From positions 682,001-746,000 of the forward strand of contig NZ_JAMXST010000002.1 of assembly GCF_024124905.1 (NCBI RefSeq): 64,000 nucleotides of DNA, written 5' to 3'. A program made the position numbers and the translations under genes. The notes below the pieces were generated by a model. That model ran no database searches. It was not told the DNA's origin and saw nothing but the letters and a program-made list of their open reading frames with translations. Shown here one piece after another: positions 14,611 to 59,689 of this stretch. This DNA comes from Cellulosimicrobium cellulans (GTDB lineage Bacteria; Actinomycetota; Actinomycetes; Actinomycetales; Cellulomonadaceae). Within the stretch, counting starts at the first letter, position 1, and each line of letters opens with the position of its first letter.

Positions 14611-16296
14611 GTGAGCCATCCCCACCCCGAACTCTCCCTGCCTCCCGAGCTCCCCACCGGAGGGCTGCGCATCGTCGCCCTCGGCGGGCTCGGGGAGGTC
14701 GGCCGCAACATGGCCGTCCTCGAGTACGACGGGCGCCTGCTCGTCATCGACTGCGGCGTCCTCTTCCCCGAGGACAACCAGCCCGGCGTCGACCTCATCC
14801 TCCCGGACTTCGACTACATCGCGGACCGGCTGGACGACATCGAGGCGATCGTCCTCACGCACGGCCACGAGGACCACATCGGCGCCGTCCCGTACCTGCT
14901 GCGCCTGCGCCGCGACATCCCCCTCGTCGGGTCGCAGCTCACGCTCGCGTTCGTCGAGGCGAAGCTCAAGGAGCACCGCATCTCGCCCGTGACCCTCGCG
15001 GTCAAGGAGGGCCAGGTCGAGCAGCTCGGCGTGTTCCGCTGCGAGTTCGTCGCCGTCAACCACTCGATCCCCGACGCGCTCGCGGTCGCGGTGACGACCG
15101 GCGCCGGGACCGTGCTGCACACGGGCGACTTCAAGATGGACCAGCTCCCGCTCGACGGGCGCATCACCGACCTGCGCGCGTTCGCGCGCCTCGGTGAGCA
15201 GGGCGTCGACCTGTTCATGGTCGACTCGACCAACGCCGAGGTCCCCGGGTTCGTCACGCCCGAGGTCGAGATCGGCCCGGTGCTCGACAACGTCTTCGCG
15301 GCGTCGGAGAAGCGCATCATCGTCGCGTCGTTCTCCTCGCACGTGCACCGCGTGCAGCAGGTCCTCAACGCGGCGCACCACCACGGGCGCCGTGTCGCGC
15401 TCGTCGGGCGCTCGATGGTCCGCAACATGACCATCGCCGCCGAGCTCGGGTACCTCCACGTGCCCGAGGGCGTGCTCATCGACCTCAAGAAGGTCGACTC
15501 GCTGCGCGACGACGAGATCGTGCTCATGTGCACCGGATCCCAGGGCGAGCCCATGGCGGCGCTGTCGCGCATGGCCAACGGCGACCACAAGGTCCAGGTC
15601 GGCCACGGCGACACCGTGATCCTCGCGTCGTCGCTCATCCCGGGCAACGAGAACGCCGTGTTCCGCATCATCAACGGGCTCACCCGGCTCGGGGCGCGCG
15701 TCGTGCACGGCGGCAACGCCAAGGTGCACGTGTCCGGGCACGCGAGCGCGGGCGAGCTCCTCTACTGCTACAACGTGCTCAAGCCCAAGAACGTCATGCC
15801 GGTGCACGGCGAGGTCCGTCACCTCGTCGCGAACGGGGCGCTCGCGGTCCGCACGGGAGTGCCCGCGGACCGCGTCGTGCTCGCCGAGGACGGCGTCGTC
15901 GTCGACCTCGTCGACGGCAAGGCGTCGGTCGTCGGCGCGGTGCCGTGCGGGTACGTGTACGTCGACGGGTCGAGCGTCGGCGAGATCACCGACGCCGAGC
16001 TCAAGGACCGGCGCATCCTCGGCGAGGAGGGCTTCGTGTCCGTCTTCGCCGTCGTGGACTCCGCGACCGGCAAGGTGCTCGCCGGCCCCCAGATCCTCGC
16101 GCGCGGCTTCGCCGAGGACGACAAGGTGTTCCAGGACATCCAGCCGGAGGTCGTCAAGGCGCTCGAGGACGCGATCGCCGGCGGCGCGACCGACACGCAC
16201 CAGCTCCAGCAGGTCATGCGCCGCGTCATCGGGCGGTGGGTCTCCAACCGCCTGCGGCGCCGCCCGATGATCGTCCCGGTGGTCGTCGAGGCCTGA
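14611..16296 (+). CDS. rnj: Ribonuclease J
   Basis: 561 residues from GTG 14611, with a strong Shine-Dalgarno (ACAGGAGG) seven bases upstream. The beta-lactamase fold has the motif-2 metal site THGHEDHIGA (His84, His86, Asp88, His89). The beta-CASP insert is followed by the conserved VNHSIPDAL and HGEVRHL segments and an RNase J C-terminal domain. The enzyme has 5'-3' exo- and endoribonuclease activity and processes rRNA and mRNA. A long hairpin follows 30 bases after the stop. Confidence 0.97.
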   Translation: MSHPHPELSLPPELPTGGLRIVALGGLGEVGRNMAVLEYDGRLLVIDCGVLFPEDNQPGVDLILPDFDYIADRLDDIEAIVLTHGHEDHIGAVPYLLRLRRDIPLVGSQLTLAFVEAKLKEHRISPVTLAVKEGQVEQLGVFRCEFVAVNHSIPDALAVAVTTGAGTVLHTGDFKMDQLPLDGRITDLRAFARLGEQGVDLFMVDSTNAEVPGFVTPEVEIGPVLDNVFAASEKRIIVASFSSHVHRVQQVLNAAHHHGRRVALVGRSMVRNMTIAAELGYLHVPEGVLIDLKKVDSLRDDEIVLMCTGSQGEPMAALSRMANGDHKVQVGHGDTVILASSLIPGNENAVFRIINGLTRLGARVVHGGNAKVHVSGHASAGELLYCYNVLKPKNVMPVHGEVRHLVANGALAVRTGVPADRVVLAEDGVVVDLVDGKASVVGAVPCGYVYVDGSSVGEITDAELKDRRILGEEGFVSVFAVVDSATGKVLAGPQILARGFAEDDKVFQDIQPEVVKALEDAIAGGATDTHQLQQVMRRVIGRWVSNRLRRRPMIVPVVVEA

Positions 16297-16326
16297 CCGG
16301 CGACGTCGTTCGCCGGCGCGAGAAGC

Positions 16327-16368
16327 GAGAAGTGGCCCCTGCCGTCGGTCTGGCGGGGGCCACTTCTC
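16327..16368. terminator. Bidirectional hairpin between rnj and the TetR gene
   Basis: GAGAAGTGGCCCCTGCC (16327-16343) pairs with 16352-16368, 17 positions with one G-T wobble and an 8-base loop. It lies between two convergent genes and can serve both. Confidence 0.85.
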
Positions 16369-16388
16369 ACGTCTCGGGGCTGGGGTCG

Positions 16389-16976
16389 TCACGTCCCGGC
16401 GCTGCGGACCAGCCCGGGGCCGACGGCGGCGAGCGTCGCGCCGTAGCGCGCGGTGCGCTCCGCGTCGTCGCCGGGGACGAGGCCGGCGAGCTCGAGCGAG
16501 ACGAGGCCGTGCACGAGGCCCCACAGCCCGAGCGCGACGTCGTCGACGGCCCCCGTGTCGGGCACGAGGCGCGCGACGGCGTCGCGCAGCACGAGGAAGG
16601 TCGCCTCCTCGACGGCGCGGGGGCGCTCCGCGCCGGGCCGCACGCCGCGGGCGAACATCACCGCGTAGAAGTGCGGGTCCGCGAGCGCGAAGGCACGGTA
16701 CGCGCCGCCGAGGGCGGCGAGGTCCGCGCCCGGGTCGTCGGTCCGGACGACGGCCGCGAGGTGGGCGCCGAAGCGCCGGAAGCCCTCGGCGGACACGGCG
16801 GCGACGAGGTCGTCGCGGCTGCCGAAGAGCGCGTACACCGCGGACGGGCTCGTCCCCGCCGCCGTCGCGACCGACCGCACCGTCACCGCGCTCTCGCCGT
16901 GCTCGGAGATGGCGCGCGACGCCACGTCGAGGAGGCGGTCGCGCAGGGCGTCGTCGTGCAGTCGGGGCCGTGCCAC
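16389..16976 (-). CDS. TetR/AcrR-family transcriptional repressor
   Basis: 195 residues, GTG start (complement of 16974-16976). The N-terminal helix-turn-helix spans about 10-58: SEHGESAVTVRSVATAAGTSPSAVYALFGSRDDLV is the classical TetR DNA-binding segment. The C-terminal domain (about 80-190) with HFYAVMFARG and GLWGLVHGLVSLELAG matches the TetR_C_33 (WHG-like) ligand domain. It is divergent from a small membrane-protein gene, and a 40-base palindrome fills the spacer, so it most likely represses that gene and itself. Ligand unknown. Confidence 0.92.
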   Translation of the reverse strand: MARPRLHDDALRDRLLDVASRAISEHGESAVTVRSVATAAGTSPSAVYALFGSRDDLVAAVSAEGFRRFGAHLAAVVRTDDPGADLAALGGAYRAFALADPHFYAVMFARGVRPGAERPRAVEEATFLVLRDAVARLVPDTGAVDDVALGLWGLVHGLVSLELAGLVPGDDAERTARYGATLAAVGPGLVRSAGT

Positions 16977-16994
16977 GCATCGAGTCTAGAGGGC

Positions 16995-17041
16995 TTGACA
17001 CCGGTTTGCGAACGCTGTTCTATAACAGTGTTCGTAAACCG
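16995..17041 (+). promoter_or_regulatory. Promoter and palindromic TetR operator
   Basis: A consensus -35 TTGACA (16995-17000) is followed by an AT-rich core TTCTATAAC (17018-17026) that supplies a -10. Overlaid on it is an inverted repeat centred on 17021/17022: 17 of 20 positions pair over 17002-17041, with half-site GTTTGCGAACGCTGTT. A repressor bound here would block the promoter of the downstream membrane-protein gene. The best -10 register (spacing 17-20) is uncertain. Confidence 0.75.
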
Positions 17042-17084
17042 CGGCGTGCCGTGCGCCGAGCGTCCCGCCAGCCCAGGAGGTCCC

Positions 17085-17495
17085 GTGCTCGAGCTCACCG
17101 ACGCCGCCCGCATCACCGCGGGCGTCGTCCTCCTCACGGTCGTCGGCATCGAGTCCGGCGGCGCGTTCCTCGTCAAGGTCGTCACACGGCGCGTGCCGGC
17201 GACGGGCTTCCAGACGTCGTTCTTCCGCGCCGGGCACGCGCACGCGGGCGTTCTCGTCATCCTGGGGCTCGTGTGCCTGCTGCTCGCGGAGGCCACCGAC
17301 CTCACGGGCTTCTGGCGGTGGCTCGCGGCCACCGGGGTCCTCGTCGCCGCCATCCTCCTGCCCGCCGGGTTCTTCCTCTCCGCGGTGGGCTCGGGGCGCG
17401 AGGCGCCGAACCGGGCGGTCGTGCTGCTCCCCGCCGGCGGCGTGGTCCTCGCCGCGGGCGTCGTGACGCTCGCGTTCGGGCTCTTCCTCGGGTGA
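17085..17495 (+). CDS. Four-helix membrane protein under TetR control
   Basis: 136 residues, GTG 17085 with the strong ribosome-binding site CAGGAGG six bases upstream. Four hydrophobic helices are predicted (about 8-30, 48-66, 74-98 and 108-134), with a conserved-looking loop RRVPATGFQTSFFRAGHAHAG between helices one and two; the His pair after the loop stands out. I do not recognise a characterised family. The divergent TetR gene and operator imply induction by a small molecule, so a role in efflux or envelope stress is possible but unproven. Confidence 0.8.
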   Translation: MLELTDAARITAGVVLLTVVGIESGGAFLVKVVTRRVPATGFQTSFFRAGHAHAGVLVILGLVCLLLAEATDLTGFWRWLAATGVLVAAILLPAGFFLSAVGSGREAPNRAVVLLPAGGVVLAAGVVTLAFGLFLG

Positions 17496-17580
17496 CGCGG
17501 CGGTCCGGGCTCGCCTGGTGCGCCGGACGCGCTCCGGACGTGCTCTGAGCGTGCGCCGCGGCGTCGTGGGTGGTCGCCGC

Positions 17581-17586
17581 TACGGT
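17581..17586 (+). promoter_or_regulatory. Leaderless-type -10 of the Imm51-like gene
   Basis: TACGGT, six bases, then ATG 17593. No ribosome-binding site lies between. Confidence 0.6.
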
Positions 17587-17592
17587 TCCCGC

Positions 17593-17958
17593 ATGACGAA
17601 CGCCGAGGACTTCGCCCCGCTCGACCCCGTCCGCCTCGTGACCCTGTCCCAGGGGTGGAGCATCATCTACTCGCCCGGCGGCCCGGAGTGGCACCAGCAC
17701 AAGGGTGCCCTCGAGCGGCACGGCGTCGAGGGTTCCGGGTACGACTTCTCCGGCGCGCTCCAGGCCACGCTGACCGACCACGAGCCGAACGTCCTCGACG
17801 CGGTCGGGTTCGACCCCGAGGGCGGCATGGTGAGCGTGTACGGGTCGGACCTCGACGCCCTGCACGCCGCGGCACGGCACCTGCACCGCCTGGTCACCGA
17901 CGAGCAGGCGCTCGACGCCGCGCTCGCCCGGTCCGTGGAGCTCGGGCTCGACGACTGA
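17593..17958 (+). CDS. Imm51-like protein (immunity-family domain)
   Basis: 121 residues from ATG 17593. The layout resembles the Imm51 family of toxin-immunity proteins: an N-terminal beta hairpin (WSIIYSPGG), a central helix over GYDFSGALQATLTDHEPN, the marker strand VGFDPEGGMVSVYGSD, and a C-terminal helix with alanine and leucine repeats. Such proteins bind and neutralise a cognate polymorphic toxin. No toxin gene is adjacent, so it is either an orphan immunity gene or a housekeeping use of the fold. The assignment rests on motif memory, not a search. Confidence 0.6.
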   Translation: MTNAEDFAPLDPVRLVTLSQGWSIIYSPGGPEWHQHKGALERHGVEGSGYDFSGALQATLTDHEPNVLDAVGFDPEGGMVSVYGSDLDALHAAARHLHRLVTDEQALDAALARSVELGLDD

Positions 17959-18029
17959 GGCTCGGCGACCCTGCATCGGCAGCGCTCCGGGTCGGGGCTC
18001 GCACCGTCCGTGGGAGGGGCAGAGCGGCT

Positions 18030-18941
18030 TCAGCGCGAGCGCAGCGCCTCGAGCTGCTCGCCGTGCCACTCGGCGACGTAACCCGTGAGCCGGCGGTCGT
18101 CGGGCAGGGTGCCGCCGCGGAGAGCGGCGTCCAGCGCGTCGAGGTAGGCACGGTCGGCCGCGAACCGTGCGGAGACCGCGGCACGGCCGACGGCGGGACT
18201 CCCGTGACCCGGGACGAGCGCGTCCACGTCGCGCGCGGCGAGCTCGAGCGCGTCGAGCGCACCCCGGTAGACCCCGACGGGGTCGCGGGCATCGGCGTCG
18301 ACGAGGGGCACCTCGACGTCGGAGAGCATGTCGCCCGCCACGAGCACGCTCCCGTCCGGCGTGCGCACCAGGAGCGCGGCGTGGCCCGGCGCGTGGGCGT
18401 CGTGCTCGACGACGGCGACCGTCCGTGGGCCGGTCGGTGCAGCGCCGGGCCAGGGGACCCGGCGTGCGCCGCGGGGGAGCGGGGTCAGCGTCCCCACGAG
18501 CGCAGGGTCGTGGCCGGGCGCGGCGGCCTCGGTCGACGCGAGGATCGCGACCCGCCGCCGCTGCGTCGCCTCGGCGGTGCGGGCTGTCGCCCAGCGGGGC
18601 GCGTCGCCGAGCGCGGGCGACCACAGCACGTGGTCCCAGTGCGGATGCGTCGCGAACCCGGCGGTCACGCGCCAGCCGTGTGCCCGCACGGCGGCGGCGA
18701 GCCCGTCGACCTCCGCGACCGTGACCGCCGGGTCGACCACCAGCGCCTCGCCGTCCGGCGTGGTGACGACGGTGGACGTCGTCGTCCAGATCTCGGCCGT
18801 CGCGACCCAGACCCCGGGGACCACCTCGACGAGGTCGCGCGTTCGCGGCGCGGTCGTCGCCCCGGGCGGCGTGGCGAGGCCCGGGTCGGCCGGGCCGCCG
18901 CTCGGTTCGTCGCGCTGCTCGGCGTGGGTGGGCTCGTGCAC
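18030..18941 (-). CDS. MBL-fold metallohydrolase
   Basis: 303 residues, GTG at 18941 preceded by GGAGGACCC, a good ribosome-binding site. The metallo-beta-lactamase motif THPHWDHV supplies His99, His101, Asp103 and His104. Further ligands are in HAPGHAALLV, VAGDMLSD and PGHGSP. The N-terminal 35 residues are disordered-looking and acidic. These enzymes hydrolyse esters, lactones or thioesters; the substrate is not predictable here. It is convergent with the Imm51-like gene and divergent from ftsK. Confidence 0.88.
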   Translation of the reverse strand: MHEPTHAEQRDEPSGGPADPGLATPPGATTAPRTRDLVEVVPGVWVATAEIWTTTSTVVTTPDGEALVVDPAVTVAEVDGLAAAVRAHGWRVTAGFATHPHWDHVLWSPALGDAPRWATARTAEATQRRRVAILASTEAAAPGHDPALVGTLTPLPRGARRVPWPGAAPTGPRTVAVVEHDAHAPGHAALLVRTPDGSVLVAGDMLSDVEVPLVDADARDPVGVYRGALDALELAARDVDALVPGHGSPAVGRAAVSARFAADRAYLDALDAALRGGTLPDDRRLTGYVAEWHGEQLEALRSR

Positions 18942-36961: not shown

Positions 36962-37026
36962 GCCGGGCCGAGTCGACGGCCCGGCGGCCGGGGGAGCGGC
37001 GCGCCGTCGCGCGGCTCCCCCGGCCG
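36962..37026 (-). terminator. Two tandem hairpins between gluB and gluC
   Basis: A 9-bp perfect stem (36962-36970 with 36977-36985) is followed by a 13-bp perfect stem (36985-36997 with 37014-37026). Both lie in the 99-base gluB-gluC gap. On the gluB transcript they start 7 bases after its stop, consistent with partial termination and 3'-end protection of gluB mRNA. Confidence 0.7.
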
Positions 37027-51694: not shown

Positions 51695-51726
51695 GCGGCC
51701 CGCGCCGGACCCCGGCTCGACGCTCT

Positions 51727-51764
51727 CCGCGACCCCGTGCGGCACCCGCCGCACGGGGTCGCGG
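51727..51764 (+). terminator. Hairpin terminator after hflX
   Basis: A perfect 17-bp stem (51727-51743 with 51748-51764) and an ACCC loop. GACCCCGTGCGGC forms its core. There is no U-run. It isolates hflX from the downstream helicase gene. Confidence 0.85.
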
Positions 51765-51815
51765 CGTGTCCGCCACCGTCGTCCACAGGGCCGCCGCCCC
51801 GTGGGCGACCGACCG

Positions 51816-59569: not shown

Positions 59570-59689
59570 GCCTCATCGTGGCACCGCCGAGCGCGGGGCG
59601 CTCAGCGGCGAAGGTCATGCCGCCCGAGGACCTTCGCCGCGTGCGCCGGGGCGACCCGGTGCACGCGGCGAAGGCGCTCGCGGTGGGCG

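Follow-up and report, generated by a model that had tools for sequence, protein, structure and literature searches.

TetR-family proteins are mostly repressors. Among the members with long operators, QacR, CgmR, Ms6564 and CprB are described in PMC4150764 as binding as two dimers to operators of 22-32 bp. Leaderless mRNAs, which bear on the regulator gene discussed here, are common in mycobacteria according to PMC5741613. With respect to four-helix membrane proteins, styrene oxide isomerase (SOI) is reported in PMC11374702 to bind haem b via H58, and H57 is given as the haem ligand of the Rhodococcus SOI in PMC12502698.

The locus described here belongs to a soil actinomycete and lies in the window, by which we mean the whole 64-kb stretch of DNA that was analysed. 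A tetR gene on the minus strand and a gene for a small membrane protein on the plus strand diverge from a 108 bp intergenic region, in which the initial annotation had placed a long palindromic operator. The arrangement resembles that of tetR genes that are autoregulated, divergent from their target and transcribed as a leaderless mRNA: the genes are divergent, one putative operator lies between them and a TAnnnT motif stands 6 nt upstream of the regulator gene. Like QacR, CgmR, Ms6564 and CprB, the regulator has a TetR_N domain and adjoins a long putative operator containing multiple dyads. Unlike the 22-32 bp operators described for those proteins, the core of this one is 36 bp long with inner dyads 13 bp apart, and the target is an unstudied membrane protein, not a known exporter. 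The proposed mechanism is of a known kind (an autoregulated divergon of TetR type, with a double operator); it is the cargo of the switch that is unstudied. The 13-bp double architecture, the apparently leaderless tetR promoter, a 20-bp promoter spacer and the replacement of TetR by MerR elsewhere go beyond the initial annotation. The features of the locus are as follows:

16389..16976, minus strand: tetR, TetR-family regulator, 195 residues, GTG start (from translation and Pfam)
16983..16988, minus strand: TAGACT, -10-like element for tetR, 6 nt from its start codon
16995..17000, plus strand: TTGACA, -35-like element for the membrane gene (from the sequence; TTGAC or a near form across 68 loci)
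17002..17041, no strand: inverted repeat with 17/20 pairs, conserved core 17004-17039
17011..17019, no strand: AACGCTGTT, first of the inner elements, with a local dyad at 17015 and a profile symmetry peak at position 12
17021..17026, plus strand: TATAAC, -10-like element for the membrane gene, within the putative operator (ATAAC almost invariant across the 68 distinct loci)
17024..17032, no strand: AACAGTGTT, second of the inner elements, with a local dyad at 17028 and a profile symmetry peak at position 25
17075..17080, plus strand: AGGAGG, membrane-gene ribosome-binding site (from the sequence)
17085..17495, plus strand: gene for the four-helix membrane protein, 136 residues, GTG start (from relatives, invariant columns and a model)
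17593-17958: gene for an Imm51-domain protein, downstream of the pair (Pfam, 2.1e-13)

The pair is flanked by rnj and ftsK. The start of ftsK was found downstream at 47 of 58 loci with an orthologous tetR and at none of 13 loci with a MerR-type gene (counted by eye); the 11 orthologous-tetR loci at which it was not found include L015, L032 and L036, which have short flanks. Genes for Imm51-like and metallo-beta-lactamase-fold proteins lie between the pair and ftsK at some loci only, so neither is a constant partner, and no third gene was seen to travel with the pair in the neighbourhoods of the examined loci. Among the matches listed, the nearest named relatives are Cellulosimicrobium, and the membrane protein of one C. 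cellulans locus (L002) is 96% identical.

Symmetry, conservation and anatomy of the putative operator

When re-scored, the inverted repeat of the initial annotation kept its coordinates (40 bases, 17002-17041) and its count of 17/20 pairs: the arms 17002-17019 and 17024-17041 are paired at 16 of 18 positions (89%), to which 17021/17022 adds a further pair. The repeat had been drawn over both TTGACA and the -10 core; the -10-like core does lie inside it, but TTGACA abuts the palindrome and is outside. Symmetry of 17/20 is by itself weak evidence for a site. The window is GC-rich, and of 200 shuffles that preserved its dinucleotides, 24 hold a repeat of at least 17/20, so symmetry alone would not establish the site. 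Three other places in the 64-kb window score 17 or 18 of 20 (36986-37025, 51726-51765 and 59633-59672); these are near-perfect, GC-rich 40-base inverted repeats.

It is the conservation of its sequence that lifts the site above chance. When genome contigs were searched with the membrane protein, at least 242 relatives were confirmed, and the best 80 loci were kept: 58 have a divergent orthologous tetR, one has a distant TetR (L074), 13 have a divergent MerR-type gene, and at 8 neither was found (L017, L055, L060, L064, L069, L075, L080 and L081). A family search of 221 genomes found the membrane protein in 99 of them, representing 15 of 25 genera, and 30 loci were kept, the window's own included. 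This gives 89 divergent tetR pairs (59 from the best 80 of the at least 242 relatives, 29 from the family search, and the window), with several of the family-search genomes duplicating those among the best 80 loci. With the threshold set at 17 or more of the 24 defined positions, an operator was called in 87 of the 89 pairs, window included, and the 87 sites collapse to 68 that are distinct by identical context. Shuffling the 87 stretches by single bases, to give 1740 sequences, yielded a top score of 16/24.

Two of the pairs, L058 and L074, hold no operator that reaches the threshold. In L058, an orthologous TetR pair, a diverged intergenic palindrome, AACAGTGTCAGGATTGGATCCTCACACTGTC, replaces the standard operator (L058:2907-3000). 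Elsewhere in the phylum, in other families, five loci with a divergent TetR (L115, L116, L120, L129 and L133) resemble this layout by eye, with GTAAC and GCAAC among their variants.

The 36-bp palindrome contains two AACnnnGTT elements whose centres are 13 bp apart, and AACnnnGTT-N4-AACnnnGTT is exact in 72 of the 87 sites. The consensus of the 68 distinct sites is CTTGACgcnn-GTTTgCGAACGgTGTTctATAACAgTGTTcGnAAAC, and the columns beyond it are nearly information-free. A symmetry scan of the 68-site profile yields a central dyad at 18.5 (score 21.4) and local dyads at 12 (11.2) and 25 (12.2); two TetR dimers per operator would be the natural reading of the two local dyads.

GCGAACGCTGTT occurs once in the genome (4,672,389 bases in 10 contigs), at the 17002-17041 locus, and no second copy of the 36-bp pattern or the 24-bp core was found in the whole genome with up to 3 mismatches, which makes the putative switch a local one. 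The description of the system as self-contained fits as well, with no second site found in the genome and no accompanying third gene seen. The placing of an operator between tetR and the membrane gene has good support: the site is conserved, has a fixed place between divergent promoter-like signals and is the sole genomic site found. The control site between the two genes is thus genuine and shared by many relatives, and it gives a compact regulator-operator pair with a single genomic site that is conserved across many Micrococcales.

Regulators beside the membrane gene

By its N-terminal helix-turn-helix domain (TetR_N, PF00440, 1.4e-11) the tetR product belongs to the TetR family, and it also matches TetR_C_33 (1.7e-15), both over the cut-off. 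No curated subfamily was reached among the 18 NCBIfam TetR subfamilies listed (best 29.7 bits vs a cut-off of 250). The alignment places the recognition helix around T42-S43-P44-S45-A46-V47-Y48. TetRs with S45 are accompanied by GAAC in the left half-site at 51 of 57 loci, and those with A45 at 0 of 11. In a TetR tree this agreement between residue 45 and operator amounts to one change (support 100/99), and covariation of helix and operator was therefore dropped as repeated evidence; as one correlated event, it is consistent with TetR reading the site. In the same tree L005, titled Sphaerisporangium cinnabarinum, groups with Cellulosimicrobium funkei and is probably a mislabelled or contaminated assembly.

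At the 13 MerR-type loci (L057, L059, L061, L065-L067, L070-L072 and L076-L079), a MerR-type gene lies upstream of the same membrane gene and divergent from it; such loci are titled Agromyces, Microbacterium, Mumia, Leifsonia and Glaciibacter. Pfam was used for 5 of the 13 calls, all MerR_1, and tblastn for the other 8. Many of these loci carry a long double palindrome that differs from the one described above and is close to TTGGATAGTnnnACTCTCTAATATTGGAGAGTnnnACTATCCAA. A search of the phylum found the membrane protein in 37 of 396 genomes and gave 29 further loci, with a divergent TetR at 5, a MerR-type gene at 6 and a same-direction TetR at 2; at the remaining 16, tblastn searches of the short flanks with six regulator queries found none. 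The membrane gene thus occurs beside TetR, beside MerR or with neither found, and is not dependent on one kind of regulator. Unrelated TetR and MerR proteins at the same gene offer two independent routes to finding the same signal.

Promoter-like signals and proposed mechanism

The promoter of the membrane gene had been annotated as a consensus one. Its TTGACA and a -10-like core are present, but the spacing from TTGACA to TATAAC is 20 bp, and a standard promoter scan of 16000-18500 with 16-18 bp spacing found no promoter. Among the 68 distinct loci, the distance from TTGAC or a near form to nATAAC is 20 bp at 62 and 21 bp at the other 6. TATAAC at 20 bp is the best -10 of the membrane gene, and TTCTAT at 17 bp could still serve as a weaker alternative; both depart from the consensus. 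ATAAC is nearly fixed in the right half of the site across the 68 loci while the mirror bases at the inner end of the left half vary, which suggests a promoter constraint added to protein binding. A Shine-Dalgarno-like motif precedes the membrane gene start at 65 of 68 loci.

On the tetR side, TAnnnT stands 6-8 nt before the start in all 68 distinct loci (6 nt in 62), vs a background of 3% in the same stretches. At a distance of 6 nt from the start codon, this motif (TAGACT in the window) would imply that the tetR mRNA is leaderless.

We consider it quite probable that the locus is an autoregulated TetR-family divergon, in which TetR represses both promoters until a ligand releases it; binding, dimers, repression and ligand are all things that we infer. 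TetR, probably as two dimers, would sit on two overlapping pseudo-palindromes 13 bp apart, covering the spacer and -10 region of the membrane-gene promoter and also the upstream part of tetR's own, apparently leaderless, promoter. Both divergent promoters would thereby be repressed, and a small ligand in the C-terminal domain would release TetR. The words "inducible" and "without a known ligand" in the initial annotation follow only from the general behaviour of the TetR family. The ligand, once found, would reveal what the membrane family handles.

The divergon is supported by the conserved operator with its two local dyads, the conserved promoter-like signals on both sides, the single genomic site, the agreement of residue 45 with the operator (a single change on the tree), the different palindrome at loci where MerR replaces TetR, and the precedent of dimer-of-dimers TetR regulators. 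Counting against it are the orthologous pair L058, which lacks the operator in its standard form, and the membrane genes with neither regulator found adjacent (8 of the 80 loci and 16 of the 29 phylum loci, the latter with limited flanks). A 20-bp spacer would also be expected to make a weak promoter, which could need activation.

This last point leads to a different role for TetR, which we regard as distinctly unlikely: TetR would activate the membrane gene, or both repress and activate it, with bound TetR (with or without ligand) phasing the -35 and -10 in a MerR-like manner. The spacer of 20 or 21 bp, kept at all 68 distinct loci, speaks for activation since it would leave the bare promoter poor, as does the MerR-type gene that takes the place of TetR in other lineages. 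However, spacing in the MerR loci is non-uniform by eye, the weaker -10 at 17 bp (TTCTAT) is possible, and, as a family, TetR proteins mostly repress.

It is highly improbable that the palindrome serves another regulator, with the adjoining tetR incidental. A MerR with a different palindrome does serve the same gene elsewhere, but the present site accompanies a divergent orthologous tetR in 87/89 pairs and is single in the genome. We give almost no credence to a palindrome arising by chance or acting at the RNA level as a terminator or attenuator, with no regulatory protein: the 24 of 200 shuffled windows with an equal repeat leave chance possible on grounds of symmetry, but sequence as well as symmetry is kept in the 87 pairs, and the site lies at the promoter, ahead of the ribosome-binding site. 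A scan of 16000-18500 for terminator-like sites was empty, by which a terminator or attenuator was rejected, and the stretch after the membrane gene (17450-17600) folds no better than shuffles (z 0.43).

The membrane protein family

The proposed divergon also draws attention to its cargo, a family of uncharacterised membrane proteins with invariant histidines. The window protein contains the motif F46-F47-R48-A49-G50-H51-A52-H53-A54, and G25, G26, R48, A49, G50, H51, H53, A54, F96 and F97 are invariant in 47 diverse rows. An AlphaFold2 model (mean pLDDT 95.7) predicts four helices (6-33, 41-70, 75-99 and 110-135). The initial annotation's four-helix membrane protein is borne out by this model of the 136-residue product, as is its TetR neighbour by the two Pfam matches given above. 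The family seems unstudied: no paper was found among open-licence PubMed Central papers for RAGHAHAG or, with general terms apart from RAGHAHAG, for the tetR/membrane-gene pair.

A Pfam and NCBIfam search of the membrane protein gave nothing over the cut-off, and Foldseek found no match in the PDB at E ≤0.001, the best candidates being MAPEG proteins at E 0.2. When the Foldseek candidates were aligned with VIA-align, SOI came first (Z 10.9, rmsd 2.7, 130 residues), followed mostly by MAPEG proteins (LTC4 synthase, MGST2 and mPGES-1) at Z of about 8.1-9.3; 2wb7, which we take to be unrelated, reaches Z 9.2, and the tool itself cautions that such values can arise in helical bundles without kinship. 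The predicted fold comes nearest to those of SOI, its best structural match, with which it shares four helices and a histidine in helix 2, and of MAPEG proteins, which also have four helices. It differs from SOI in its two invariant histidines (H51 and H53), its shorter loops and the lack of styrene genes seen alongside, and from MAPEG in that PF01124 has no match here.

Sequence comparison was unsupportive of either assignment, and membership of SOI or MAPEG by sequence was rejected: the SOI model NF045734 did not match the window protein at E ≤5, hhalign of the membrane-protein profile against six SOI-like proteins from plasmids (five of them annotated StyC, the sixth hypothetical) gave a probability of 0.3-0.4% and no kinship, and PF01124 did not match at E ≤1. 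No MAPEG was found in the window's genome or in 60 genomes of the phylum, and no SOI gene was recognised beside Smoa_sbd (PF17885) proteins of actinomycetes at the loci inspected. Modulator-of-smoothened, at E 0.0017 with a single sequence and 0.19 with a profile, was set aside.

A role for the protein as a cofactor-binding enzyme, perhaps one that binds haem, is no more than a lead. A broader and rather unlikely reading would make the gene an old inducible cargo that encodes a new SOI/MAPEG-like, possibly haem-binding enzyme family (RAGHAHAG), switched by TetR or MerR at their own double palindromes; the TetR promoter with its 20-bp spacer may then be remodelled rather than merely blocked.

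One distant genome holds two different copies of a RAGHAHAG protein about 1 kb apart (L137:143-544 and L137:1504-1971). Another relative, L081, lies in a bin titled Chloroflexi and is the sole non-Actinomycetota relative noticed among the matches listed; it may be real or misbinned.
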